Source: an uncultured bacterium
GTDB taxonomy: Bacteria > Spirochaetota > UBA4802 > UB4802
Length of the DNA stretch: 64,000 bases
Assembly: GCA_937920495.1 (NCBI GenBank)
Contig: CALEUQ010000011.1
Coordinates: 62,001 to 126,000, forward strand
Direction of reading: 5' to 3'
Shown in pieces: positions 9,774 to 59,070 of the stretch. How positions within the stretch are numbered: position 1 is the stretch's first letter; every line of letters starts with the position of its first letter. A model generated the notes under the pieces. It saw nothing but the letters and a program-made list of their open reading frames with translations, made no database searches and was not told where the DNA came from. A program made the position numbers and the translations under genes.

Positions 9774-10415
9774 TTATTTTTTGTCTCTAATCCTTTTACT
9801 ATATTTATAAACGCCTTTTAAAGTCTTTAAAGGTTGATCTTTTGCAGCAATATTGACTACCCATGCGGGAAGTGATCCTCCAAGTTCAGCATGTACCTGA
9901 TAAATGACTTCTACGTGATTATCGTCCTTTTTGATTATATCCCATCTGCCTTTCAGAGAAGTCATTCGTACCAAACCACTATCTTTTTTATATGAACTAT
10001 CATTAATAGATGTCAAAGTGACCCATGCAGTGCCTTTAGTTTCATCCCAGCCGCTTTCAACTTTTACAACAACATCACGGTCTGTTACAACAGGCAGATC
10101 AAGTACAAAATACATGTCAATATCTTTTGGATTTCTTACGTTGATTGCCTCCAACTGATTGCACATTCCATACCATTTGTGATAATTATTATAATCCTGG
10201 ATTACTTTTAATGCTATATCAAATGGTATATCCGAGTAACTTACACCTTTAAATTCTTTATATGGTGAGCCAGGTATGTCGCGTGTGTAAATTTTTAAAG
10301 TAGCTTGATCTTCGGTACCTTCATAAACAAGTTTCCATACATTAGTTTGGGAAAAGCCTGTAATTGAGAATGCAATCAAAAAGACACACATTATAAACAA
10401 TAATAAACGCTTCAT
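9774..10415 (-). CDS. Exported START-domain (SRPBCC fold) lipid-binding-like protein
   Basis: The 213-residue protein begins with a clear signal peptide (MKRLLLFIMCVFLIAFSITGFS) ending near residue 22, followed by a START/StAR-type helix-grip domain. Typical segments are KEFKGVSYSDIPFDIALKVI and DLPVVTDRDVVV, and the carboxy-terminal helix includes SLPAWVVNIAAKDQP. START domains bind lipids or sterols in a hydrophobic cavity. GGAGG stands eight bases before the ATG. It is the last gene of a minus-strand run with thiolase and acyl-CoA synthetase, 39 bp after the thiolase, so a periplasmic role in delivering a lipid substrate for degradation is a reasonable inference. The bound ligand is unknown. 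Confidence 0.8.
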   Translation of the reverse strand: MKRLLLFIMCVFLIAFSITGFSQTNVWKLVYEGTEDQATLKIYTRDIPGSPYKEFKGVSYSDIPFDIALKVIQDYNNYHKWYGMCNQLEAINVRNPKDIDMYFVLDLPVVTDRDVVVKVESGWDETKGTAWVTLTSINDSSYKKDSGLVRMTSLKGRWDIIKKDDNHVEVIYQVHAELGGSLPAWVVNIAAKDQPLKTLKGVYKYSKRIRDKK

Positions 10416-10454: not shown

Positions 10455-11633
10455 TTATTGTACCTTTTCAACCAGTAATGCACCGGCATTCCCAAATGCA
10501 CCACATAATGAAGCAAGTCCATATTTTGCATCGGGGAACTCAGTACTTAAAATATTGAGCAATGTAATGATAATACGTGCACCGGATTCACCTAAAGGAT
10601 GTCCCAATGCTATAGCTCCACCCCACACATTTACACGCTTGAAAGGTGCATTTTCATTATCAAGCTTTAATTCACGTATACATGCTAATGACTGACTGGC
10701 AAAAGCTTCATTGAGTTCTATAGCTCCAACTTCGTCTAAATTAAGTCCAGTCCGAGCAATTAGCTTTTTGATGGCAGGAATTGGACCGATTCCCATGATT
10801 GTAGGGTCGCATCCAGCTAATACACCATAAGAATACTTGTACCTGTATGGCAATCCTAATTTATCAGCCTTTTCACGACTCATGAGAAGCAAAGCACAGG
10901 CTCCCTGAGTAAGAGGAGATGATGTAGCTGCAGTTACTACGCCATTAGGTTTAAATGGGGACATCATAGTTTTCATTTTATCTTCATCTACTTTTTCTCT
11001 AACCCACTGATCTCTATCAACAAGAAATTCATTCCCATTATCATCCAGTCCTTTTATAGGAACTATCTCCTTTTTAAACTTACCAGAAACTGTAGCTTCC
11101 CAAGCCTTTTTATTTGACCACACAGCCATGTTTTCCATATCTTCACGTGATATTTTCCACTGTTCGGCAACTTTTTCTGCCGTTGCACCCATTAAAAGAT
11201 CTGCACCATTGTAATACTTTAATAGTCTTGGTGGGAAGTCCATATTGGCCCCCATGGGGACTTTTTCCATATCTTCTACGCCAGCAGCAATTATTATATC
11301 AGCTTCACCAGTCATAATAGCACGAGCTGCATGCATAGTTGCTGACATACCCGATGGACATTGATTGGTCAATGTATTAGTTGGCACTGATTCTGGTAGT
11401 CCGGATGCAAGCCAGGCTAACCTTCCAATATCATTTTGCATGCCGGATGGATTGGCACATCCTACAAAAACAGCATCCACCATATCAGGCGCGACCTTGT
11501 TATTGCGCTCAAATAATGCATTATACACTGGTGTCAACAGCTCATCAGGTCGCAAATGTCTAAACCAACCTTTTTCACGATGAGCTCTCCCATTTGGTGT
11601 TCTTACACCATCAATGAACACACATTCTCTCAT
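10455..11633 (-). CDS. Acetyl-CoA acetyltransferase / 3-ketoacyl-CoA thiolase
   Basis: The 392-residue thiolase would catalyse the last step of beta-oxidation, cleaving 3-ketoacyl-CoA with CoA. The nucleophilic cysteine is C92 in NQCPSGMSA. The histidine of GHPLGESGAR (near 345) and the second cysteine of LCGAFGNAGA (near 377) complete the active site. The last motif is usually CGGGGQG or similar, so CGAFGNA is a divergent form. ELNEAFA is present. GAGAGG precedes the ATG. It lies 25 bp downstream of the acyl-CoA synthetase and 39 bp upstream of the START gene, forming one operon. Confidence 0.93.
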   Translation of the reverse strand: MRECVFIDGVRTPNGRAHREKGWFRHLRPDELLTPVYNALFERNNKVAPDMVDAVFVGCANPSGMQNDIGRLAWLASGLPESVPTNTLTNQCPSGMSATMHAARAIMTGEADIIIAAGVEDMEKVPMGANMDFPPRLLKYYNGADLLMGATAEKVAEQWKISREDMENMAVWSNKKAWEATVSGKFKKEIVPIKGLDDNGNEFLVDRDQWVREKVDEDKMKTMMSPFKPNGVVTAATSSPLTQGACALLLMSREKADKLGLPYRYKYSYGVLAGCDPTIMGIGPIPAIKKLIARTGLNLDEVGAIELNEAFASQSLACIRELKLDNENAPFKRVNVWGGAIALGHPLGESGARIIITLLNILSTEFPDAKYGLASLCGAFGNAGALLVEKVQ

Positions 11634-11658: not shown

Positions 11659-13536
11659 TTATTTATTTTTGATTTTAAGTTTCTTTTTTGATCGTAAGAA
11701 TTGATCGATGGCCATTTGCCGTAATATTTTTTTATCGACTTTTTGTACTGCTGTTCGCGGAAGTTCATCAACTATCCTGATGAATTTTGGTACAGCATAT
11801 TTTGCAACTTTTGATTGCATATATTTTAATATGTCCTGTTCTTTTGTTTTATTTTTGAATTGAGGATATAACTGAACAAAAAGGACAACTAATTCGCTAC
11901 CGTCTTTTTCAGGATTTGGTATACCAATGGTGGCCGCTGCTTCAATATGTGGATGTTCACTTGCAATATCATCTATTTCTTTTGAATAAACCTTAAAACC
12001 TGAAACATTTATCATATCTTTTGTGCGGTCAACAATGTAAAAATAGCCACTGGAGTCTATCTGTACAACATCCCCGGTATGAATGAATCCATCAGCATCA
12101 CAACCACTATTGGGTTTAGGCCAGTATCCTAACATACGCTGGGGTCCTTTTAAAAGCATTTCAGCCTTCTTACCAGCTAACATATCATCGATTGTTAGAA
12201 TATTACCAGTTTCAAAATCAAGAAAACGGATTTCGGTGTCAGGGAAAGGAATTCCAATAGTTCTCCTTTTTTCAATGGATTTCTTATGTGCTTTTTGACC
12301 TGTCTTTTTCATGCGATACGCAATAATTTTAGTAAAAATCCAACCAAAGTTTCTTGGACCTAACATTCTGAATAATTTATTAGTCAAATAACTGTTTCCG
12401 GGAATTGAAGATAACAGAGAAACAAGTTGAACGCCAATACGCCCACCTAAAATGCGATAGATTACAGAAGGGTTAAGATGTGTAACTGGTGACATTTCAG
12501 ATAGACCATAACCTTCCATGATGCCGCTATTTGACCGTTTTTCAAATTCTTCCTGTGTTGATTCAGATAGAGGCGCTGATCCTGAAAGACCAATAATGCC
12601 AATGCCACTTAAATCTTCTTTTGCTAATTTCATGAACTGAGCAGGCACACCTATCTGCATAACCGGATAATACTTTTTTATATTTTCAACCATCGTTTTA
12701 GTATCCCGAGGATCGTTAATGACAATAATATTAAATCCAAAAAGCATCATAGTATGCATAAGGCAATGACCGTAAGTATGAAAAAATGGTAATCCTAAGA
12801 TAACAGAGATTGCTCCTTTAAAAGTAAGTCCACCAGCACCCAGTGCATGAAGGTTCTGGATACAATTAGCATATATATTTCTATGTGTGAGCATGCATCC
12901 TTTTGGAATACCTGTGGTGCCACCTGTAAATATTAACGTTTCAATATCCTTTTCAACATCAATTGATACTGGCGCAACATCTCCACTGGAACTCTGTATT
13001 AGTGAATATAGTTCATAAAGTTGACCACCTGAAACTTTTTTTGAATCTACTTCGATAGTTGGTATGGAAGTATCAGTACGAGTATTGGCTATGATTATTA
13101 TTCTGATATTAGACTTTTTTATTAAGCTGTGGAATATCCTTATATCACTATCGGTACAAATGATGGCCTTAGGTTTTCCTTCACTAAATTTGTGTTCCAT
13201 GGCTTCTGAGGGTTCAAGTGAACTACATGGTAGATGAATAAGACCTGCCTTTGAAATCGCGTAATCAGCAATAATAAACTCTGTAGAAGTTGGTAAGATT
13301 GTGGCAATAATATCATTTTTGACTAAACCAAACGATTGAAGTTGTGAAGCCAACCTGTTCACATAATCAAGAAGTTGCGGGTATGTAATAAAAAAATCTT
13401 TTTGTAGAAGTCCGTTATTTTTATATTTCTTTGCTGCTATTTCCAGAATATCGTACACGGGTTTGTCTGGATAAGGTTTAAAAGTTTTTGGTATACCTAA
13501 AACTCTATATTCTTTGTACCAGGGAAAAGATTGCAT
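11659..13536 (-). CDS. Acyl-CoA synthetase (AMP-forming)
   Basis: This 625-residue ANL enzyme activates a carboxylic acid to its CoA ester. The P-loop is FTGGTTGIPKG; further motifs are EGYGLSEMSPV, DGFIHTGDVVQID and KDMINVSGFKVYSKE. I start it at the ATG for MQSFPWYKEY because GGAGG lies seven bases upstream; an in-frame ATG 36 bp earlier has no such site. A region of about 80 residues between the LSEMSPV motif and the hinge is longer and more basic than in common FadD proteins. It sits between the SCP2 gene (with a terminator hairpin in between) and thiolase. The substrate could be a fatty acid or a lipid side-chain acid. Confidence 0.9.
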   Translation of the reverse strand: MQSFPWYKEYRVLGIPKTFKPYPDKPVYDILEIAAKKYKNNGLLQKDFFITYPQLLDYVNRLASQLQSFGLVKNDIIATILPTSTEFIIADYAISKAGLIHLPCSSLEPSEAMEHKFSEGKPKAIICTDSDIRIFHSLIKKSNIRIIIIANTRTDTSIPTIEVDSKKVSGGQLYELYSLIQSSSGDVAPVSIDVEKDIETLIFTGGTTGIPKGCMLTHRNIYANCIQNLHALGAGGLTFKGAISVILGLPFFHTYGHCLMHTMMLFGFNIIVINDPRDTKTMVENIKKYYPVMQIGVPAQFMKLAKEDLSGIGIIGLSGSAPLSESTQEEFEKRSNSGIMEGYGLSEMSPVTHLNPSVIYRILGGRIGVQLVSLLSSIPGNSYLTNKLFRMLGPRNFGWIFTKIIAYRMKKTGQKAHKKSIEKRRTIGIPFPDTEIRFLDFETGNILTIDDMLAGKKAEMLLKGPQRMLGYWPKPNSGCDADGFIHTGDVVQIDSSGYFYIVDRTKDMINVSGFKVYSKEIDDIASEHPHIEAAATIGIPNPEKDGSELVVLFVQLYPQFKNKTKEQDILKYMQSKVAKYAVPKFIRIVDELPRTAVQKVDKKILRQMAIDQFLRSKKKLKIKNK

Positions 13537-13611: not shown

Positions 13612-14169
13612 TCAAGTGAATAGGGGTTGGGTTGCCATTGCAAAACTCATATCGCCTTCAATTTTCATTGCACCTGACATAAAGAGATTAACTGGATTTG
13701 TTTCCTTTTTCATTAGGGCAGCTGAATCCTTTGTTGTCATACGGAAAATAGATTGTGGTGTTGTGGCTCCATTCAAAATTGCTTCGATTGTAAATTCAGA
13801 GCCATCATCATTTTTAAGTTTAGCGATAAAACTTCCCTTTAAGGATGACAATGCGTTATAACGAGCACGTGTCAGATCTTTTTGCATACCTAAAAGCATA
13901 TCAAGATTATTAGTTTCAATCATTTTCTTTAGATCTGCTTCTGATATTTTTAATCTAAGCATTGCGTTGGGAATGTCACCACAAGTGGAAATATCCTTCC
14001 CATCTTTGACTTTAAATCCGTAGGATTTGCCATTAACCTCAACAACCATAGTGATTTCGGTCCCACCTAATTCTTTTGGAGCATTAGAATTTTGAAGCAT
14101 TTCAGTAGCTACTTTTGGCATTAATTCGGTAAGAAATTGTTCAACAGAAGTATTTGGTGCAATTACCAT
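13612..14169 (-). CDS. SCP2 sterol-carrier-domain protein
   Basis: The 185-residue protein matches the SCP2/sterol carrier fold, a small soluble lipid- or acyl-CoA-binding domain. Typical features are the VVEVNGKSYGFKVKDG strand pair, an LRLKISEADLKKMIE helix, and a carboxy-terminal part with SGAMKIEGDMSFAMA. The last feature is the conserved G-x-hydrophobic-K-hydrophobic-x-G-D segment of the family. I begin at the ATG with GGAGGAG six bases upstream; the frame stays open for 32 more codons but has no ribosome site. A 20-bp perfect palindrome lies 62 bp before the start, overlapping the likely promoter, so it should be repressed by the adjacent TetR. Confidence 0.88.
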   Translation of the reverse strand: MVIAPNTSVEQFLTELMPKVATEMLQNSNAPKELGGTEITMVVEVNGKSYGFKVKDGKDISTCGDIPNAMLRLKISEADLKKMIETNNLDMLLGMQKDLTRARYNALSSLKGSFIAKLKNDDGSEFTIEAILNGATTPQSIFRMTTKDSAALMKKETNPVNLFMSGAMKIEGDMSFAMATQPLFT

Positions 14170-14230: not shown

Positions 14231-14250
14231 AATACTGACATGTCAGTATT
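14231..14250. promoter_or_regulatory. TetR operator, 20-bp perfect palindrome
   Basis: The sequence is a perfect palindrome with core TACTGACATGTCAGTA flanked by AA/TT. It shares that 16-bp core with 15061-15084. A minus-strand TTGACA lies at 14260-14265, so the palindrome fills the spacer/-10 region of the SCP2 promoter. The TetR gene lies between the two sites. Confidence 0.85.
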
Positions 14251-14423
14251 TATTAAATTTGTCAAGTGGATTTTTAAAATTTTTTATTTTTTTTATTTTA
14301 GATGCGTTAGAGATATCAAGATAGTATGAAGCAAATATTATGAGAGATAAACTAACATTTTAAATCATTGACGATGCGATATATATTTATAAATATCGAT
14401 TAAAAAATGAAAGGATGGTGATA

Positions 14424-15038
14424 ATGGCTAGATCTGATGAAACACGTGAGAAGATCCTGCAGCATGCAAAAAAATTATTTTCTGACAAGGGATATTATAC
14501 TACTCAAATTTCAGATATAATTGAATCCGCTAAAATTGGACGAGGAACGGTATATCAATATTTTTCAAATAAAGAGCACCTTTTCATATCTCTTTTGGAA
14601 AGATTCTTAATGGAATGGGAAGATTATTTAAAAGAGTTATCTATTCATGAAGATTTGAGCACTATTTCACATCATGTATATCTTAAAAGCAGGATCATGC
14701 AGGCGTTCAGATTTTTTTTTAGTGATAGAGATAGAGCTAACATAATTTTAAGAGTGGGATTGGGATTGCCTGAACATTTTGAGCAAAAAATAGAACATTT
14801 TGAAAATAAACTTATTAGCTTAATAATCAAAGATCTAAAAATAGCGGTAGAATATGGCCATATATTAAAGGATACTGATCTAACTTTCACAGCAAATTTA
14901 GTTGCTGGCGGCGTGTTTAGAATTGCACATTATTATCTTACTATCCAGAAGAATGACGAAAAATTACTTAATGATATAAACATGCTTTCAGACATGGCTG
15001 CAAAAATTATAGGGAAAGGGATTTTTAATAAAAAATAG
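14424..15038 (+). CDS. TetR/AcrR-family repressor of the lipid-oxidation divergon
   Basis: The 204-residue protein has an N-terminal TetR helix-turn-helix (TTQISDIIESAKIGRGTVYQ followed by YFSNKEHLF) and a helical ligand domain. The ATG for MARSDETREK is preferred because AAAGG lies nine bases upstream; an ATG three codons earlier touches the same site too closely. Perfect palindromes with the same core flank the gene at 14231 and 15061, upstream of SCP2 and of the acyl-CoA dehydrogenase operon. By analogy with FadR-type TetR proteins it probably releases DNA on binding an acyl-CoA or related lipid; the ligand is inferred only. Confidence 0.92.
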   Translation: MARSDETREKILQHAKKLFSDKGYYTTQISDIIESAKIGRGTVYQYFSNKEHLFISLLERFLMEWEDYLKELSIHEDLSTISHHVYLKSRIMQAFRFFFSDRDRANIILRVGLGLPEHFEQKIEHFENKLISLIIKDLKIAVEYGHILKDTDLTFTANLVAGGVFRIAHYYLTIQKNDEKLLNDINMLSDMAAKIIGKGIFNKK

Positions 15039-15060
15039 TTGACTATTTTAAGTGTCCATA

Positions 15061-15084
15061 TAAGTACTGACATGTCAGTACTTA
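15061..15084. promoter_or_regulatory. TetR operator, 24-bp perfect palindrome
   Basis: This is a perfect 24-bp inverted repeat centred on core TACTGACATGTCAGTA, 23 bp upstream of the first acyl-CoA dehydrogenase start. A TTGACT at 15039-15044 and TATAAG at 15059-15064 suggest the palindrome overlaps the -10 and the transcription start, as expected for repression. Confidence 0.87.
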
Positions 15085-15106
15085 TATTTATTGAGGAGGT
15101 TATTAT

Positions 15107-16204
15107 ATGGTAGAAGAAATTAGTTTTGCATTGTCTGAAGAACAACAGATGATGCAGGATACCGTTAGACAACTTGTACAAGCACAGGTTATTGATAATA
15201 TCCATCAATGGGATGAAAATCGATTACTTGACAAACAAGCAGTGCAAAAATTTTGGGAGTTAGGTATAATACAGTCAATGATTCCAGAAGAGTTTGGTGG
15301 GTATGGTATGGGATCTTCACCAGTATTGCATACCCTGGTTTTAGAAGAATTGGCTTCTGGTGACATGAGTTTTGCAGTGCATGCAATGTTACCTGCACTT
15401 TTTGTATTACCGGTAGTTAGTTTGGGTAGTGTGGAACAAAAAGAAAAATATCTCCCTGAATTTTGTAATGAATCATTTGTTCCTGCAACATTAGCGGTTA
15501 ATGAACTTAGTGTTGGTTTTGACATCTGGAATTGCGAAACTAAAGTTGAAAAGAAAGGTAATTCGTATATTTTAAATGGGAAAAAATGTTTTGTTCCTCT
15601 GGCAAATGAAGCAAAGTATATGATTGTTGTGGCAAACTATGAAAGTAATCCGCATTTGTTTATAGTAGAGAATGGTATAGAAGGAGTAATTGTTGGAGAA
15701 AGAGAGAAAAACTGCGGCTGGTGGGCATTACCAACGTATGAAGTATCTTTTGAAAATTGTGCCATTCCTGAGAATAATATCTTAGGAGATAAAACCGCCA
15801 TTTATTGGCTTTTGCAAAGAACAAGAACAGCAATGGCTGCAATTGGTACAGGAATTTCACGTTCTTCATATGAATATGCAAAGAAATATGCAAAAGAACG
15901 GCAGCAATTTGGAGAACCTATAGCTAGCCGACAATCCATAGCCTTCATGATAGCTGAAATGGCATACGAAGTAGATGCAATGCGTTTGTTAACATGGAAA
16001 GCTGCATCAACCATAGAATTAGGTATCGATGCAAACCGTGAATCATTCCTTGCAAAAATATATGCAGGTGAAATGACAATGAAAATAACTGATTATGGTG
16101 TTCAGATTCTTGGTGGCCATGGATATATCAGAGATCATCCTGTAGAGCGATACTATCGAAATGGGCGTAGTATTGCGCTTTGTGAAGCTATGTCAATTAT
16201 TTAA
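15107..16204 (+). CDS. Acyl-CoA dehydrogenase (short C-terminus)
   Basis: The 365-residue protein has the three-part acyl-CoA dehydrogenase fold: an N-terminal helical domain, a middle beta domain and a C-terminal helical domain with RQQFGEPIASRQSIAFMIAEMAYEV split around the FAD site. Close to the end ILGGHGYIRDHPVERYYRN is well conserved. It ends ten residues after that in IALCEAMSII, so the usual YEGT with the catalytic glutamate is replaced by CEAM and the following helix is missing. The glutamate itself may be kept. GAGGAGG precedes the ATG. It is the first gene of the operator-controlled plus-strand operon, 12 bp before a second dehydrogenase, and could form a hetero-oligomer with it. 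Confidence 0.88.
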   Translation: MVEEISFALSEEQQMMQDTVRQLVQAQVIDNIHQWDENRLLDKQAVQKFWELGIIQSMIPEEFGGYGMGSSPVLHTLVLEELASGDMSFAVHAMLPALFVLPVVSLGSVEQKEKYLPEFCNESFVPATLAVNELSVGFDIWNCETKVEKKGNSYILNGKKCFVPLANEAKYMIVVANYESNPHLFIVENGIEGVIVGEREKNCGWWALPTYEVSFENCAIPENNILGDKTAIYWLLQRTRTAMAAIGTGISRSSYEYAKKYAKERQQFGEPIASRQSIAFMIAEMAYEVDAMRLLTWKAASTIELGIDANRESFLAKIYAGEMTMKITDYGVQILGGHGYIRDHPVERYYRNGRSIALCEAMSII

Positions 16205-16216
16205 GAGAGGAGGATA

Positions 16217-17413
16217 ATGATGATACAATTAGCAACACCGGATTATATAAAAACATTACAGGATAATATGCACAAGTTAGCTGAAGGTGTATTGCGTCCA
16301 ATTTCAAGGAAATACGATGAAGCCGAACATGAATATCCCAAAGAACTTGATATGTTCAGGGGGATAAAAGTAATGGCAAGGCCAAAAAAGAAAAAGGAAG
16401 GGGAGAGTGCTTCTAATGATGAAAAGAAACCCAAGCGTGGGGCAAATTTAGGAATGGTAGTAACTATCGAAGAGATGTGTTGGGGAGATGCTGCACTGTT
16501 ATTGTCATTTCCTAATGCAGGTCTGGGGAATGCTGCTATTTTAGCTGTTGCTAATGATGAACAACTGGAAAGGTTTGGCAATAAATGGGCAGCTATGGCA
16601 ATTACTGAACCAGGTGCGGGTTCTGATTCAGGTGCCATTACAACAACAGCAACTCGCGATGGTGATTATTGGGTGCTTAACGGTGAAAAAATATTTGTAA
16701 CATGTGCGGATAGAAGTGAAGTGGTAGTGGTGTGGGCGACAGTTGATAAAAAAGCAGGAAAAGCCGGTATAAAATCATTTGTTGTAGAAAAAGGTACTCC
16801 AGGTTTTACACTGGAACATCTGGAGCACAAATTAGGAATTAGAGCATCTGATACAGGAACCTTTGTTCTCAGCGATTGCAGGATACCCTACAATAATATT
16901 TTGGGTGATCCTGAAGTGAAGATGTCAACTGAAGGCTTTAAGGGCGTAATGAAAACATTTGATAATACCAGACCACTGGTTGCTTCCATGGCTACAGGTA
17001 TTGCGCGTGCTGCCGTAGAATTTACCAAAGAACAATATGAACAAAAAGGATATGTGTTTGATTATAAGAAGAATTTATCCAATGTTTCTGCTGCTGAACG
17101 AGAATTGTATCTTATGGAAGCAAATGTAGAAGCTATGCGACTTTTAACATGGCGCGCAGCATGGATGGCAGATAATGGTCAGTTTAATAATCTGGAAGCT
17201 TCGATGGCCAAAGCAAAAGCGGGGCGATATGGAACATTAATAACGCAACGATGCTGTGAATTACTTGGACCGGTAGGGTATTCTACTCATTATCTTGCAG
17301 AGAAGTGGATGAGAGACAGCAAGATTATGGACATTTTTGAAGGTACTGGACAGATACAGCATCTGATTATTGCGCGCAATGTACTGGAGATGTCAAGTAA
17401 AGAACTTAAATAG
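16217..17413 (+). CDS. Acyl-CoA dehydrogenase with lysine-rich insertion
   Basis: The 398-residue protein is a full-length acyl-CoA dehydrogenase introducing the alpha-beta double bond. The catalytic glutamate is in IFEGTGQIQ near residue 375. TEPGAGSDSGAI and the RCCELLGPVGYSTHYLAEKW segment are also typical. Residues 54-75 form a hydrophilic lysine/glutamate-rich insertion (RPKKKKEGESASNDEKKPKR) between two N-terminal helices, probably a surface loop. GAGGAGGAT lies just before the start; ATGATG leaves the exact start uncertain by one codon. It is in one operon with the preceding dehydrogenase and the hydroxyacyl-CoA dehydrogenase. Confidence 0.92.
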   Translation: MMIQLATPDYIKTLQDNMHKLAEGVLRPISRKYDEAEHEYPKELDMFRGIKVMARPKKKKEGESASNDEKKPKRGANLGMVVTIEEMCWGDAALLLSFPNAGLGNAAILAVANDEQLERFGNKWAAMAITEPGAGSDSGAITTTATRDGDYWVLNGEKIFVTCADRSEVVVVWATVDKKAGKAGIKSFVVEKGTPGFTLEHLEHKLGIRASDTGTFVLSDCRIPYNNILGDPEVKMSTEGFKGVMKTFDNTRPLVASMATGIARAAVEFTKEQYEQKGYVFDYKKNLSNVSAAERELYLMEANVEAMRLLTWRAAWMADNGQFNNLEASMAKAKAGRYGTLITQRCCELLGPVGYSTHYLAEKWMRDSKIMDIFEGTGQIQHLIIARNVLEMSSKELK

Positions 17414-17442: not shown

Positions 17443-18606
17443 ATGCAAAATGTAAGTGATGTTAAGAAGATTGCAGTTATAGGTTCAGGAGCAATGGGTC
17501 ACGGGATTGCGCAGGTGTGTGCACAAAGTGGGTTAATGGTTACCATGATAGATATTAAGCAGGAATTTCTGGATAATGCGTTGAAAAAAGTGAGAGACGG
17601 TCTGGATTTTCTTGCATCAAAAGGGAAATTGCAGGGCACAGTTGACGAAGTTTTAGGCAAAATAAGTGTTACAACTGATTTACAAAAAGGTGTATCTGAT
17701 GCTCAGATAATAATAGAAGCAGTGCCGGAAAATATGCAACTTAAAAAAGATGTATTTTCAAAAGCTTCTTCATCGTGTTCTAAAGATGCTATATTGGCCA
17801 CAAACACTTCTACGATGAGTATAACTGAGATAGCAACTGCTGTAACAAACCCTGAACGATTTGCAGGAATGCATTTTTTCAATCCTGTCACCAGAATGAA
17901 ATTAGTTGAATTAATATATGGTGCAAAAACATCTGAGAGCACGATTAATATTTTATATGAATTAACAAAGAAGATAGATAAATACCCGGTTAAAGTTTTA
18001 AAAGATCGTCCGGGATTTATTGTTAACAGAATAAGTGCGCCAAACCAGGCATTGCTAAGCGCTATTTTGGATGAAGGTACGATCAATCCGGCACAAATTG
18101 ATGGTAAAATGAAGAAAATGGGTGTGAAGATGGCTCCTTTTGAAACAGCTGATTTTGTTGGATTGGATGTTTTTTGTCACACACTGGAATATTATGCTCA
18201 GACACTATCGCCACAGTATAAACCCGGAAAATTTTTATTAGGATGTCTGGAAAAAGGTCAGTTAGGGATGAAAAGTGGAAAAGGGATCTATGAGTGGAAA
18301 GATGGTAAGGCTATCATACCGGATATGCCAGATACTGATGAAATCACACCATTGCATTTTATGGCAGTACAGGTTAATGAAGCAGTAAAAGTATTCAAAG
18401 AAGGTATTGCAGCAAGTGTCCAGGACATTGATGATGGTGTAAAATATGGAATGAATGCATTTGCGGGTCCATTTGCACTTGCATCAGGGGTTCAACCGCA
18501 ACAATTGGCTGATTGTTTACATTATTTAGCAGAGCGATATAAATTGGACATTGTAAAACCCGAACCGGAAATCATAGATGGTTCTTTTAAAACAATAGGA
18601 AGATAG
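17443..18606 (+). CDS. 3-hydroxyacyl-CoA dehydrogenase
   Basis: The 387-residue enzyme oxidises 3-hydroxyacyl-CoA to 3-ketoacyl-CoA with NAD+. An N-terminal Rossmann motif GSGAMGHGIAQ lies near residue 12. The catalytic histidine is in GMHFFNPVTRMKLVE (near 143), followed by KDRPGFIVNR. Two C-terminal helical domains end in a second 3HCDH-type repeat, so it is the longer two-repeat form rather than the 280-residue butyryl type. AGGAGG precedes the ATG, and the enoyl-CoA hydratase follows after 10 bp, so these two steps are carried by separate proteins instead of a FadB fusion. Confidence 0.93.
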   Translation: MQNVSDVKKIAVIGSGAMGHGIAQVCAQSGLMVTMIDIKQEFLDNALKKVRDGLDFLASKGKLQGTVDEVLGKISVTTDLQKGVSDAQIIIEAVPENMQLKKDVFSKASSSCSKDAILATNTSTMSITEIATAVTNPERFAGMHFFNPVTRMKLVELIYGAKTSESTINILYELTKKIDKYPVKVLKDRPGFIVNRISAPNQALLSAILDEGTINPAQIDGKMKKMGVKMAPFETADFVGLDVFCHTLEYYAQTLSPQYKPGKFLLGCLEKGQLGMKSGKGIYEWKDGKAIIPDMPDTDEITPLHFMAVQVNEAVKVFKEGIAASVQDIDDGVKYGMNAFAGPFALASGVQPQQLADCLHYLAERYKLDIVKPEPEIIDGSFKTIGR

Positions 18607-18616
18607 GAGGTCTGGT

Positions 18617-19387
18617 ATGTCAGATGCGGTATTGTTTGAACAAAAAGGAATGATTGGTATATTAACCATAAACAAGCCTAAAGCAAATCAGCTAAGCCAT
18701 GACGTGTTTGAAACGATGAGGAAATTGCTGGATACACTGGAAATAGATAAAAATATACGGGTATTAGTAATAACAGGATCTGGGGATAAGATTTTCTGTG
18801 CTGGTGCTGATCTTTCACAGGGTTTTGGAGATTTTAGTGCTGTTGATTTTTTAAAGCGTGGACAGGATGTATGGAACAAGATAGAAGATTATCCCAAACC
18901 TGTTATTGCTGCACTGAACGGTCATGCACTGGGTGGTGGATGTGAATTAGCAATGGCATGCCATATACGGCTTATGAAAAAAGGTGCTCGTATTGGTTTA
19001 ACCGAAACAAATTTAGGTATAATGCCAGGATATGGTGGCACGTTGCGACTGCCGCGATTAGTGGGAAGAGCAAAAGCATTAGAATTGATGCTATTTGGTA
19101 GACAATTGGAAGCAGATGAGGCATTAGAATTAGGTCTTGTTAATAGAGTATTTGAAGAACAGGATTTTATGGGCCAGGTACTGAAATTTGCTGAAGAATT
19201 AGCAAGCAGACCACCTTTATCAGTTAAGGCAATCTTAAAAGTTATGTCGGCAGGGCCTTCAATGTCGCCTGAGATGCATTTAAAGATGGAGCGAGAAGAA
19301 CTGGCTAAATTATTTACTACTAAGGATTGTATGGAAGGAATGATGGCATTTGCACAAAAGCGAAAACCTGAATTTAAAGGTGAATAA
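18617..19387 (+). CDS. Enoyl-CoA hydratase/isomerase
   Basis: The 256-residue crotonase-family enzyme would hydrate trans-2-enoyl-CoA. The oxyanion-hole motif is ALNGHALGGGCELAM. Both catalytic glutamates of true hydratases appear to be present, in GGCELA and in GLTETNLG, just before IMPGYGGT. AGGAGG precedes the ATG. It is the last gene of the plus-strand beta-oxidation operon and is followed by a strong terminator. With the two dehydrogenases, the 3-hydroxyacyl-CoA dehydrogenase and the thiolase across the divergon, a complete beta-oxidation cycle is encoded. Confidence 0.93.
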   Translation: MSDAVLFEQKGMIGILTINKPKANQLSHDVFETMRKLLDTLEIDKNIRVLVITGSGDKIFCAGADLSQGFGDFSAVDFLKRGQDVWNKIEDYPKPVIAALNGHALGGGCELAMACHIRLMKKGARIGLTETNLGIMPGYGGTLRLPRLVGRAKALELMLFGRQLEADEALELGLVNRVFEEQDFMGQVLKFAEELASRPPLSVKAILKVMSAGPSMSPEMHLKMEREELAKLFTTKDCMEGMMAFAQKRKPEFKGE

Positions 19388-19456: not shown

Positions 19457-19577
19457 GTATTTAGAATTATATTGTTTTACTGTGGCAAAAGTAAATACTG
19501 GATTGTTCGGGATGATGTAAAGTAAAATAAAACTGAATTAAAATGATGGCAATATAATTATTGTTTTGGAGTTGGGA

Positions 19578-20168
19578 ATGCCTCACGTATTAAGTAAAGA
19601 AAACAGCAAACAGAAAACACTGATAATGCAAAAATCACAGGTGCTGTTTTGGGAAAAAGGATATGCTGAAACCAGTATGAAGGATATAGCCAACGAATGT
19701 GGTTTCAGACCTGCCAATATCTATAATTTTTTTGAAAGTAAAGAAGAGATATTGTTCTCAATCTTAAAAGAAGAAATGGAAGAGATTGTTAATCCAATCA
19801 GATATATGGAAAAGGAAGATGGAGATCCATTACAGCAATTGAGATTTTTAATAGAAACTCATGTTAAAATTACTTTAGGGGAAAAACGAGCGTCAAAATT
19901 ACTGTTTGATACAGAACTCAGGAATCTTTCTCCTGAGAGAAGAAAAGTTATTCTGGATCTAAGGGATGAATATAATAGGATAGGATATTCCATACTCAGG
20001 CGTGGGATTGAAAAGGGATTATTCAGAAAAATTGATGAGAAAGTTGCATTACATCTTATCGCTTCAATGATTGTCAGAACCAGGTTATGGTTTTCCCCCC
20101 AGGAGTGGATGACCATTGATGATTTAATTGAATTTATCTTCCAGTTTGCATTAAAAGGATTATCATAA
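19578..20168 (+). CDS. TetR/AcrR-family transcriptional regulator (second)
   Basis: The 196-residue protein has a TetR DNA-binding domain (TSMKDIANECGFRPANIYNF then FESKEEILF) and a helical effector domain. The ATG for MPHVLSK is chosen because GGAG lies six bases before it; a TTG four codons earlier overlaps that site. It follows the terminator of the beta-oxidation operon and is the first gene of a short run with a cysteine-cluster protein and a rhomboid protease. No clear palindrome is seen in its own leader, so its targets are open; the FadR-like site at 3750 is one speculative possibility. Confidence 0.88.
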   Translation: MPHVLSKENSKQKTLIMQKSQVLFWEKGYAETSMKDIANECGFRPANIYNFFESKEEILFSILKEEMEEIVNPIRYMEKEDGDPLQQLRFLIETHVKITLGEKRASKLLFDTELRNLSPERRKVILDLRDEYNRIGYSILRRGIEKGLFRKIDEKVALHLIASMIVRTRLWFSPQEWMTIDDLIEFIFQFALKGLS

Positions 20169-27951: not shown

Positions 27952-29118
27952 ATGAATGAAAAAAAAATTAATATATTAATTATAAATTATGAATTTCCGC
28001 CGTTAGGAGGTGGTGGAGGAGTTGCCACGTATGATCTTGCATTGGAGTGGGTAAAAACAGCAGATGTGCACGTCATCACTTCATCGTTCAAGGGGTTACC
28101 ATCATATGAAAATGTTAATGGGATTCATGTACACCGGGTAAAGATCTTATTCAGAAAATCCAGGGATGCGGCAACATTTATTTCAATGTTTAGCTACTTA
28201 CCTGCCGGTTTTATAAAGGCACTATCGCTTGCACTGAAATATAAGTTTGACGTCATCAATACTCATTTTGTGGTACCATCAGGCCCCTTGGGGTATGTCA
28301 TTTCAAAATTGTTTGGCATTCCCAATGTGTTATCATTGCATGGTGGCGATATCTATGATCCAAGTAAAACGCTTTCGCCACACCGTAATCGTTTTTTTAA
28401 GGCTGTTGTGCGTTTCCTGCTTAACAGGGCTGACATAGTTGTGGCCCAATCGTCAAATACTAAAACTAATGCAATAGAATACTATGCTCCAAAAAAAGAG
28501 ATAGAGATTATTCCATTAGCGTTTCACCCACCAGTACTGCCAAAAACATCACCAAAAAGGCTGGGACTTAAGGAAAAGGATTTTATCTGCATAACAATAG
28601 GAAGATTAATAAAACGCAAATCTATTGATGTGCTAATAAGGGCAATAGCCCTTATTAATAAACCTAACGTGAAACTTCTCATCATGGGAGATGGTCCCGA
28701 GCGAGAATATCTGGAATCACTGGTAGAAGAATTGTCATTACAGGACAGAGTAAAATTTCTGGGTTTTGTTGCCGATGAAGAGAAATTTGCCTATCTTTCG
28801 CAATCTGATTTATTTGTGCTTACATCAATGCATGAAGGATTTGGCATTGTATTTATGGAAGCTATGTATTGCGGATTGCCGATTGTTGCAACCAACCATG
28901 GCGGTCAGGTTGATTTCCTTACCCATGGCGACAATGCATTGTTAATTAATGTTGGTGATACAAAAGGATGTGCTGAAAGTATTATGAAGTTTTACAGTGA
29001 TAAAAGGCTTTATTCACGCTGTTCAGTAAATAATAAAAAAAAGATTACAAACTTTTTTGCCGAGAATGTAGCAGGGCGGTATATGAATATTTTTTTACAA
29101 TTAGTCAATAAAAAATGA
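27952..29118 (+). CDS. Glycosyltransferase family 4 (GT-B)
   Basis: The 388-residue protein is a retaining GT-B glycosyltransferase. The N-terminal acceptor-side domain starts with NYEFPPLGGGGGVATYDLA; the C-terminal nucleotide-sugar domain holds GRLIKRKSIDVLI and the EX7E motif in HEGFGIVFMEA. Such enzymes add sugars to lipids, polysaccharides or small molecules. GGAG lies eight bases before the ATG at 27952. Its stop overlaps the next ATG (ATGA), linking it to an atypical response regulator rather than to a polysaccharide cluster. Confidence 0.9.
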   Translation: MNEKKINILIINYEFPPLGGGGGVATYDLALEWVKTADVHVITSSFKGLPSYENVNGIHVHRVKILFRKSRDAATFISMFSYLPAGFIKALSLALKYKFDVINTHFVVPSGPLGYVISKLFGIPNVLSLHGGDIYDPSKTLSPHRNRFFKAVVRFLLNRADIVVAQSSNTKTNAIEYYAPKKEIEIIPLAFHPPVLPKTSPKRLGLKEKDFICITIGRLIKRKSIDVLIRAIALINKPNVKLLIMGDGPEREYLESLVEELSLQDRVKFLGFVADEEKFAYLSQSDLFVLTSMHEGFGIVFMEAMYCGLPIVATNHGGQVDFLTHGDNALLINVGDTKGCAESIMKFYSDKRLYSRCSVNNKKKITNFFAENVAGRYMNIFLQLVNKK

Positions 29119-58962: not shown

Positions 58963-59070
58963 CTATCTTATCAAGAGTGGTGGAGGGACTGGCCCTGTGA
59001 AGCCACGGCAACCGGCGGTAGTATGAGTCGGTGCCAATTCCAGCGGAAGAAATTCCGGGAGATGAGATAG
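58963..59070 (+). ncRNA. SAM-I riboswitch (S box)
   Basis: The sequence has the SAM-I conserved elements in order: CTTATCAAGAGTGGTGGAGG, GACTGGCCC, TGAAGCC, CGGCAACC, GGTGCCAATTCC and GAGATGAG. Helix P1 is formed by 58963-58972 with 59061-59070 (CTATCTTATC/GATGAGATAG). It is followed by a terminator and then metX, so SAM binding should reduce metX-metW transcription. Confidence 0.97.

Follow-up and report, generated by a model that had tools for sequence, protein, structure and literature searches.

Within the 64,000-nucleotide stretch of DNA analysed here (the window), a gene for a TetR-family regulator, designated TetR1, stands between two perfect palindromes and two groups of lipid genes, which raises the question of which protein reads these palindromes and how far its control extends. 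It is, in our judgement, highly probable that TetR1 acts as a repressor of both beta-oxidation units of the locus, of a chemoreceptor and of a hydrolase, and that it is probably released by acyl-CoA.

The palindromes and their neighbouring genes

TetR1 is encoded on the plus strand (14424..15038, in a frame also open from 14415) and belongs to the TetR family, its PF00440 TetR_N domain scoring 55.2 bits for a cut-off of 24. To its left, four genes are read from the minus strand, which encode an SCP2 sterol-carrier-like lipid-transfer protein (13612..14169, PF02036), a FadD-like long-chain acyl-CoA ligase (11659..13536, PF00501/PF13193, start read from the sequence), a thiolase (acetyl-CoA C-acyltransferase; 10455..11633, TIGR01930 with 378 bits for a cut-off of 240.55) and a START-domain lipid-binding protein (9774..10415, PF01852). 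To its right, the plus strand encodes acyl-CoA dehydrogenase 1 (ACAD1; 15107..16204, PF00441/PF02771), acyl-CoA dehydrogenase 2 (ACAD2; 16217..17413, PF00441/PF02770), 3-hydroxyacyl-CoA dehydrogenase (HCDH; 17443..18606, PF02737/PF00725) and enoyl-CoA hydratase (ECH; 18617..19387, PF00378). Together, the SCP2-side and ACAD1-side genes make up a nearly complete beta-oxidation set. Additionally, a second FadR-like TetR protein, TetR2, is encoded at 19566..20168 on the plus strand (PF17932, TetR_C_24, 77.3 bits). Elsewhere in the window, a SAM riboswitch (RF00162, 91.9 bits) was found at 58965-59068 on the plus strand.

The original prediction placed a TetR gene between two perfect palindromes sharing a core, with the SCP2 gene read from the minus strand and the acyl-CoA dehydrogenase operon from the plus strand, and this arrangement, both palindromes and a common 16-bp core, TACTGACATGTCAGTA, were recovered in the sequence. 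The first palindrome (predicted operator 1; 14231..14250) is AATACTGACATGTCAGTATT, which has the 20 bp originally described and contains the 14-bp core ACTGACATGTCAGT at 14234-14247. It is located 61 bp 5' of the SCP2 start, a likely ATG at 14169, and the mechanically called SCP2 ORF extends to 14265, across this operator. The second palindrome (predicted operator 2; 15058..15087) is found in the gap that separates the stop of TetR1 from the start of ACAD1, with its core at 15066-15079; described earlier as 24 bp ending at 15084, it is really a perfect palindrome of 30 bp, ATATAAGTACTGACATGTCAGTACTTATAT, that reaches 15087. The half-site architecture of the operators is ACTGAC-NN-GTCAGT.

Apart from these two, the window contains a single perfect palindrome of at least 16 bp, a 16-mer at 27966 made up of A and T only. 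When the window was simulated 60 times with a first-order Markov model, palindromes with a length of 20 bp or greater arose 0.13 times per simulated window, the longest having 22 bp. The exact 16-mer core has only three copies in the whole genome (3,020,675 bases, or 3.02 Mb, in 86 contigs), two of which are the sites described above. When up to three mismatches were allowed, 14 sites were found in this genome versus 15 for the reversed-pattern control, indicating that looser matches in this genome alone are noise, and relatives were therefore compared instead. Literature searches retrieved no paper for the core string and nothing relevant for an ScbR-like core.

Distribution of the operator and its promoter context

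Among the 46 genomes of the order, 22 contain the exact 14-mer ACTGACATGTCAGT, at 53 sites in total, versus 0 of 46 for the reversed-pattern control. Outside the order, it was detected in one of 346 genomes of the phylum, at a site inside a coding ORF, and the reversed control was likewise detected in one genome over the 392 of the phylum. TetR1-type genes were defined by a best match of at least 190 bits, a cut-off chosen after a score gap from 194 to 104 bits had been seen, and 26 of the order's 46 genomes have such a gene. The exact core occurs in 22 of these 26 genomes versus none of the 20 without a TetR1-type gene (Fisher p 1.9e-9, for genomes that are related and not independent), and all 22 genomes carrying the exact core have a TetR1-type gene. 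The TetR1-type genomes without the exact core are G013, G022, G039 and G041, and in G022 two one-base variants of the core are located upstream of HCDH. HCDH orthologues were found in 22 genomes, 21 of them with TetR1-type genes, so that the motif is not cleanly separable from the pathway. Additionally, a scan of a contig collection with TetR1 gave a single match, a distant TetR protein from Spirulina, and FlaA, a flagellar protein family of spirochaetes, gave three matches in the genome of the window and none in 14 control genomes, which makes Spirochaetota the probable phylum.

The position of the operators is conserved together with the gene order. SCP2, TetR1 and ACAD1 were found together in 16 genomes read, and in 15 of them TetR1 has an operator with no more than two core mismatches to its left and another to its right, these 15 comprising the five genomes of the genus (G000-G004, of which G000 is the genome of the window) as well as G006, G008, G015, G017, G027, G031, G033, G034, G035 and G038; the exception, G023, has the left operator only. 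In G028, where the locus is broken up, an exact site is still found with TetR1, and two more are located between the gene of the ligase and that of HCDH. A palindromic operator beside the gene of the regulator is a trait of the TetR family, and the predicted operators show it at 15 of the 16 loci. This positional conservation and the co-occurrence of core and TetR1-type gene (22/26 versus 0/20) support the proposal that the palindromes are TetR operators of a lipid-oxidation regulon. The backbone of the tree of TetR1-type proteins is unresolved, and orthology and paralogy were therefore judged by gene neighbourhood. It was also observed that G035 carries two tandem operators, 23 bp apart, before SCP2 (L048 6584-6622), as if two dimers bound one helix face.

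In all five genus genomes both operators keep their position while the flanking intergenic DNA is variable, and each operator is accompanied by an invariant -35-like box: TTGACA (14260..14265, minus strand), which faces SCP2 and lies upstream of operator 1 on that strand, and TTGACT (15039..15044, plus strand), which faces ACAD1 and lies upstream of operator 2. Considering 54 distinct exact sites in the loci compared, an exact TTGACA was found no more than 35 nt away, on one side or both, in 32 cases, versus 0.96 expected from shuffled flanks, and with one mismatch in 46 cases versus 17.35 expected, the gap between box and core ranging from 3 to 27 nt. This enrichment suggests that the operator lies across the core promoter or immediately downstream of it, as in simple repression. 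A clean -10 was not seen at the expected 16-18 nt past TTGACA, the best TATAAT-like signal being located 14 nt past the box, and a consensus promoter scan returned none over either operator that uses the conserved boxes. The claim that the sites overlap promoters agrees with the conserved TTGACA and TTGACT boxes, whereas its consensus -10 was not found by the simple scan.

Sites beyond the locus and the chemoreceptor

The genome-wide motif search that had been suggested as a check was carried out across the genus with the relaxed pattern ACYGACNNGTCRGT, which yielded 21 sites in the five genomes versus 3 for the control (4, 5, 3, 5 and 4 sites in G000, G001, G002, G003 and G004). All 21 are located in promoter regions, upstream of genes for beta-oxidation (10), a hydrolase (4), a chemoreceptor (3), a lipoprotein with an outer-membrane-like protein (3) and another outer-membrane-like gene (1). 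The hydrolase sites precede an alpha/beta-hydrolase lipoprotein in G000, G001, G003 and G004, each with TTGACA five bases upstream. Close orthologues of this hydrolase (at least 57% identity) have the operator in seven of eight genomes, G002 being the exception, and more distant homologues have it in 0 of 13. In G001, G002 and G003, the gene behind the site encodes an orthologous lipoprotein, about 1400-1500 aa long, and the outer-membrane-like protein comes next, and in G004 one site lies ahead of a different outer-membrane-like gene, a label that we assume from the look of these sequences. The contig of 3,568 bases that carries the orthologous outer-membrane-like gene of G000 stops short of where the site would be. 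A FadL/OmpP1 identity was considered for these genes and found no support, since the proteins of 515-538 aa have no Pfam family and no PDB match up to an E of 1, and the G004 gene scored only 15.8 bits for FadL/OmpP1 (Toluene_X), under the cut-off.

Several further observations were made. In two genomes of the genus g12 (L113 5997-6208 and L114 6041-6243), an operator of its own accompanies a START-type gene and is located upstream of TTGACA rather than downstream, a geometry unlike that of the other sites. Another signalling output near this operator is seen in G035 (L050 6625-8529), where a gene for a HAMP-SpoIIE phosphatase has an exact site ahead of it. Acetyl-CoA hydrolase/CoA-transferase genes bear an operator in G036 (L115 263-2554) and G029 (L117 4926-6970), by which the regulon may be extended to acyl-CoA transfer. 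In the genome of the window, a TetR1 paralogue on contig C36 (L106 6517-10276) precedes two FAD-dependent oxidoreductase genes which, by their domains, we take to resemble anaerobic glycerol-3-phosphate dehydrogenase subunits, and no match to ACTGACATGTCAGT within two mismatches was found in that stretch.

Regarding the chemoreceptor, sites in the genus are found in G000, G001 and G003, before 7TMR-DISM receptors with MCPsignal, the domains having been checked for G000 (L015 7799-9991; 7TMR-DISM_7TM 143, 7TMR-DISMED2 109.5 and MCPsignal 100.8 bits, all above the cut-off). In these three genomes TTGACA points to the receptor and not to the divergent lipoprotein gene, and the site is far from the receptor start, at a distance of about 180 to 400 bp. 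With a profile built from five receptors and an E limit of 1e-150, 38 homologues were identified in 19 of the 46 genomes, and the upstream DNA of 32 of them was read. Among these 32 homologues, the core with at most one mismatch is located upstream of nine, being exact in G000, G001, G003, G008 and G021 and changed at one base in G017, G031, G035 and G038, and these operator-bearing receptors are distributed over six genera of the families f1, f4 and f7. No such site was found upstream of the other 23, the G004 receptor included. In g12, a genus of another family, a 7TMR-DISM homologue directly follows the beta-oxidation operon in all six genomes. Its domains were checked in two of them, giving 7TMR-DISMED2, 7TM and SpoIIE in G027 and 7TMR-DISMED2 and 7TM in the available part in G033; in this genus, the same sensor module, with a SpoIIE phosphatase as its output, forms part of the operon itself.

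These observations suggest, tentatively and at less than even confidence, that a 7TMR-DISM chemoreceptor for lipids or fatty acids is under the direct control of a repressor of fatty acid degradation, so that these spirochaetes would swim to the fat they burn. What 7TMR-DISM receptors bind is difficult to predict, and their putative co-regulation with beta-oxidation across three families reduces the candidate ligands to lipids, fatty acids or their breakdown products. If this proposal is true, the 7TMR-DISMED2 sensor would gain a predicted lipid ligand. In the titles and openings of abstracts covered by our literature search, no fatty acid degradation regulon of the TetR type was reported to include a chemoreceptor.

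The candidate regulator, its rivals and known systems

The palindromes might instead function at the RNA level, as terminator or attenuator hairpins, or represent a repeat element, considering that they are perfect inverted repeats and that site 2 is located between two co-directional genes. However, they have neither a T tract nor a loop, the terminator scan found none, three copies in 3.02 Mb are very few, the sites occupy promoter regions in which the flanks vary around an invariant core, and their distribution follows TetR1; this reading is therefore disfavoured and deserves almost no credence. If the palindromes are protein operators, TetR2 (19566-20168) could be their binder and TetR1 could have another role, given that TetR2 resembles FadR more closely than TetR1 does (69.1 versus 49.6 bits on the NCBIfam FadR model, cut-off 200, and the better match to TetR_C_24) and is present in 15 of the 22 motif genomes. 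We regard this as improbable, since TetR2 has no match in the remaining seven, four TetR2 genomes lack the exact motif, which makes TetR2 (core in 15 of 19 genomes) a poorer predictor than TetR1, its gene is located away from the locus outside the genus, and it is the TetR1 gene itself that lies between both operators. One of these seven, G004, has a contig that stops at ECH, and its lack of a TetR2 match need not mean a loss.

Some plausibility, albeit well short of likelihood, attaches to the proposal that several TetR1 paralogues use one operator sequence, in which case the chemoreceptor and the hydrolase would belong to the regulon of a paralogue and not to that of TetR1. Paralogues are found within the motif neighbourhood in five genomes, adjoining the operator-bearing chemoreceptor in G008 and G021, where the paralogue may be the regulator of the receptor, and adjoining an exact site in G036, G040 and G042; thus, more than one repressor may read the motif. 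On the other hand, the nearest paralogue in the genome of the window, that of C36, stands by redox genes with no such site nearby, and no TetR gene was found among the neighbours read of the chemoreceptor operator in G000, G001 and G003.

In the explanation that we prefer, a TetR1 dimer would bind ACTGAC-NN-GTCAGT at positions overlapping promoters and would repress both the left unit, SCP2-acyl-CoA ligase-thiolase-START, and the right unit, ACAD1-ACAD2-HCDH-ECH. Elsewhere in the genome, its predicted targets are the 7TMR-DISM chemoreceptor and the lipoprotein alpha/beta hydrolase, to which the lipoprotein and outer-membrane-like genes would be added in sister species. Fatty acyl-CoA, the product of the ligase under putative TetR1 control, probably releases TetR1, and lipid seeking, cutting, importing and oxidising would then be switched on together.

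Regarding its family, TetR1 is under the cut-offs of both the Bacillus-type FadR equivalog NF053878 (49.6 bits, cut-off 200) and the autoregulator-binding factor ScbR NF041196 (60.8 bits, cut-off 150) of NCBIfam, and its single-sequence AlphaFold model is poor (mean pLDDT 51.9). The FadR-like functional trait of operators at beta-oxidation genes is present in the form of the predicted operators. Therefore, TetR1 appears to be FadR-like in kind while scoring far under the FadR cut-off, so it would work like FadR and is not filed as FadR. Among its nearest solved full-length relatives are 1vi0 and 3whb (positions 9-202 of 203, 71 bits), and the entries 1vi0 and 3whb/3whc represent FadR (YsiA) of Bacillus subtilis. 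This regulator of fatty acid metabolism is matched by the TetR1 profile over nearly its full length, the sequence relation being distant. Operators of the ScbR/ArpA type are ACCGACCGGTCGGT-like and have the half-site architecture ACYGAC-NN-GTCRGT, the same as in the TetR1 sites, although these systems control different genes and TetR1 falls under the ScbR cut-off.

The FadR of Thermus thermophilus, also a TetR-family fatty acid regulator, recognizes a 15-bp pseudopalindrome, and the consensus given in that account, TTRNACYNRGTNYAA, is unlike the ACTGACATGTCAGT of the TetR1 sites (PMC5597230). The nearest system in kind is FadRSa of Sulfolobus acidocaldarius, described as an acyl-CoA-released TetR repressor of a lipase and beta-oxidation cluster, with four genomic sites and a 16-bp semi-palindromic motif with dyad symmetry (PMC6449355). 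TetR1 would share with it the repression of lipid genes by a TetR protein from few sites with a dyad motif, whereas FadRSa is archaeal, its motif is semi-palindromic and its response to acyl-CoA has been shown, that of TetR1 being predicted; in the account of FadRSa drawn on here a chemoreceptor is unmentioned, whereas the TetR1 regulon is predicted to include one (PMC6449355). In Proteobacteria, the TetR-family fatty acid degradation regulons of PsrA and FadP were reconstructed by the same comparative-genomics route in other lineages than that of TetR1, and, in the part of that source considered here, chemotaxis genes belong only to the N-acetylglucosamine regulon of NagC and not to the fatty acid regulon, NagC thus providing a sugar precedent for a link between a regulon and chemotaxis (PMC5343134). 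With the regulon proposed here, the spirochaete order gains a compact and testable system of lipid catabolism with a defined predicted operator and a chemoreceptor as a predicted member. TetR regulons that govern beta-oxidation are already known, and the presence of a chemoreceptor and a hydrolase in the one proposed here would be new to the specialist, the new element being the predicted link of fat oxidation to chemotaxis.
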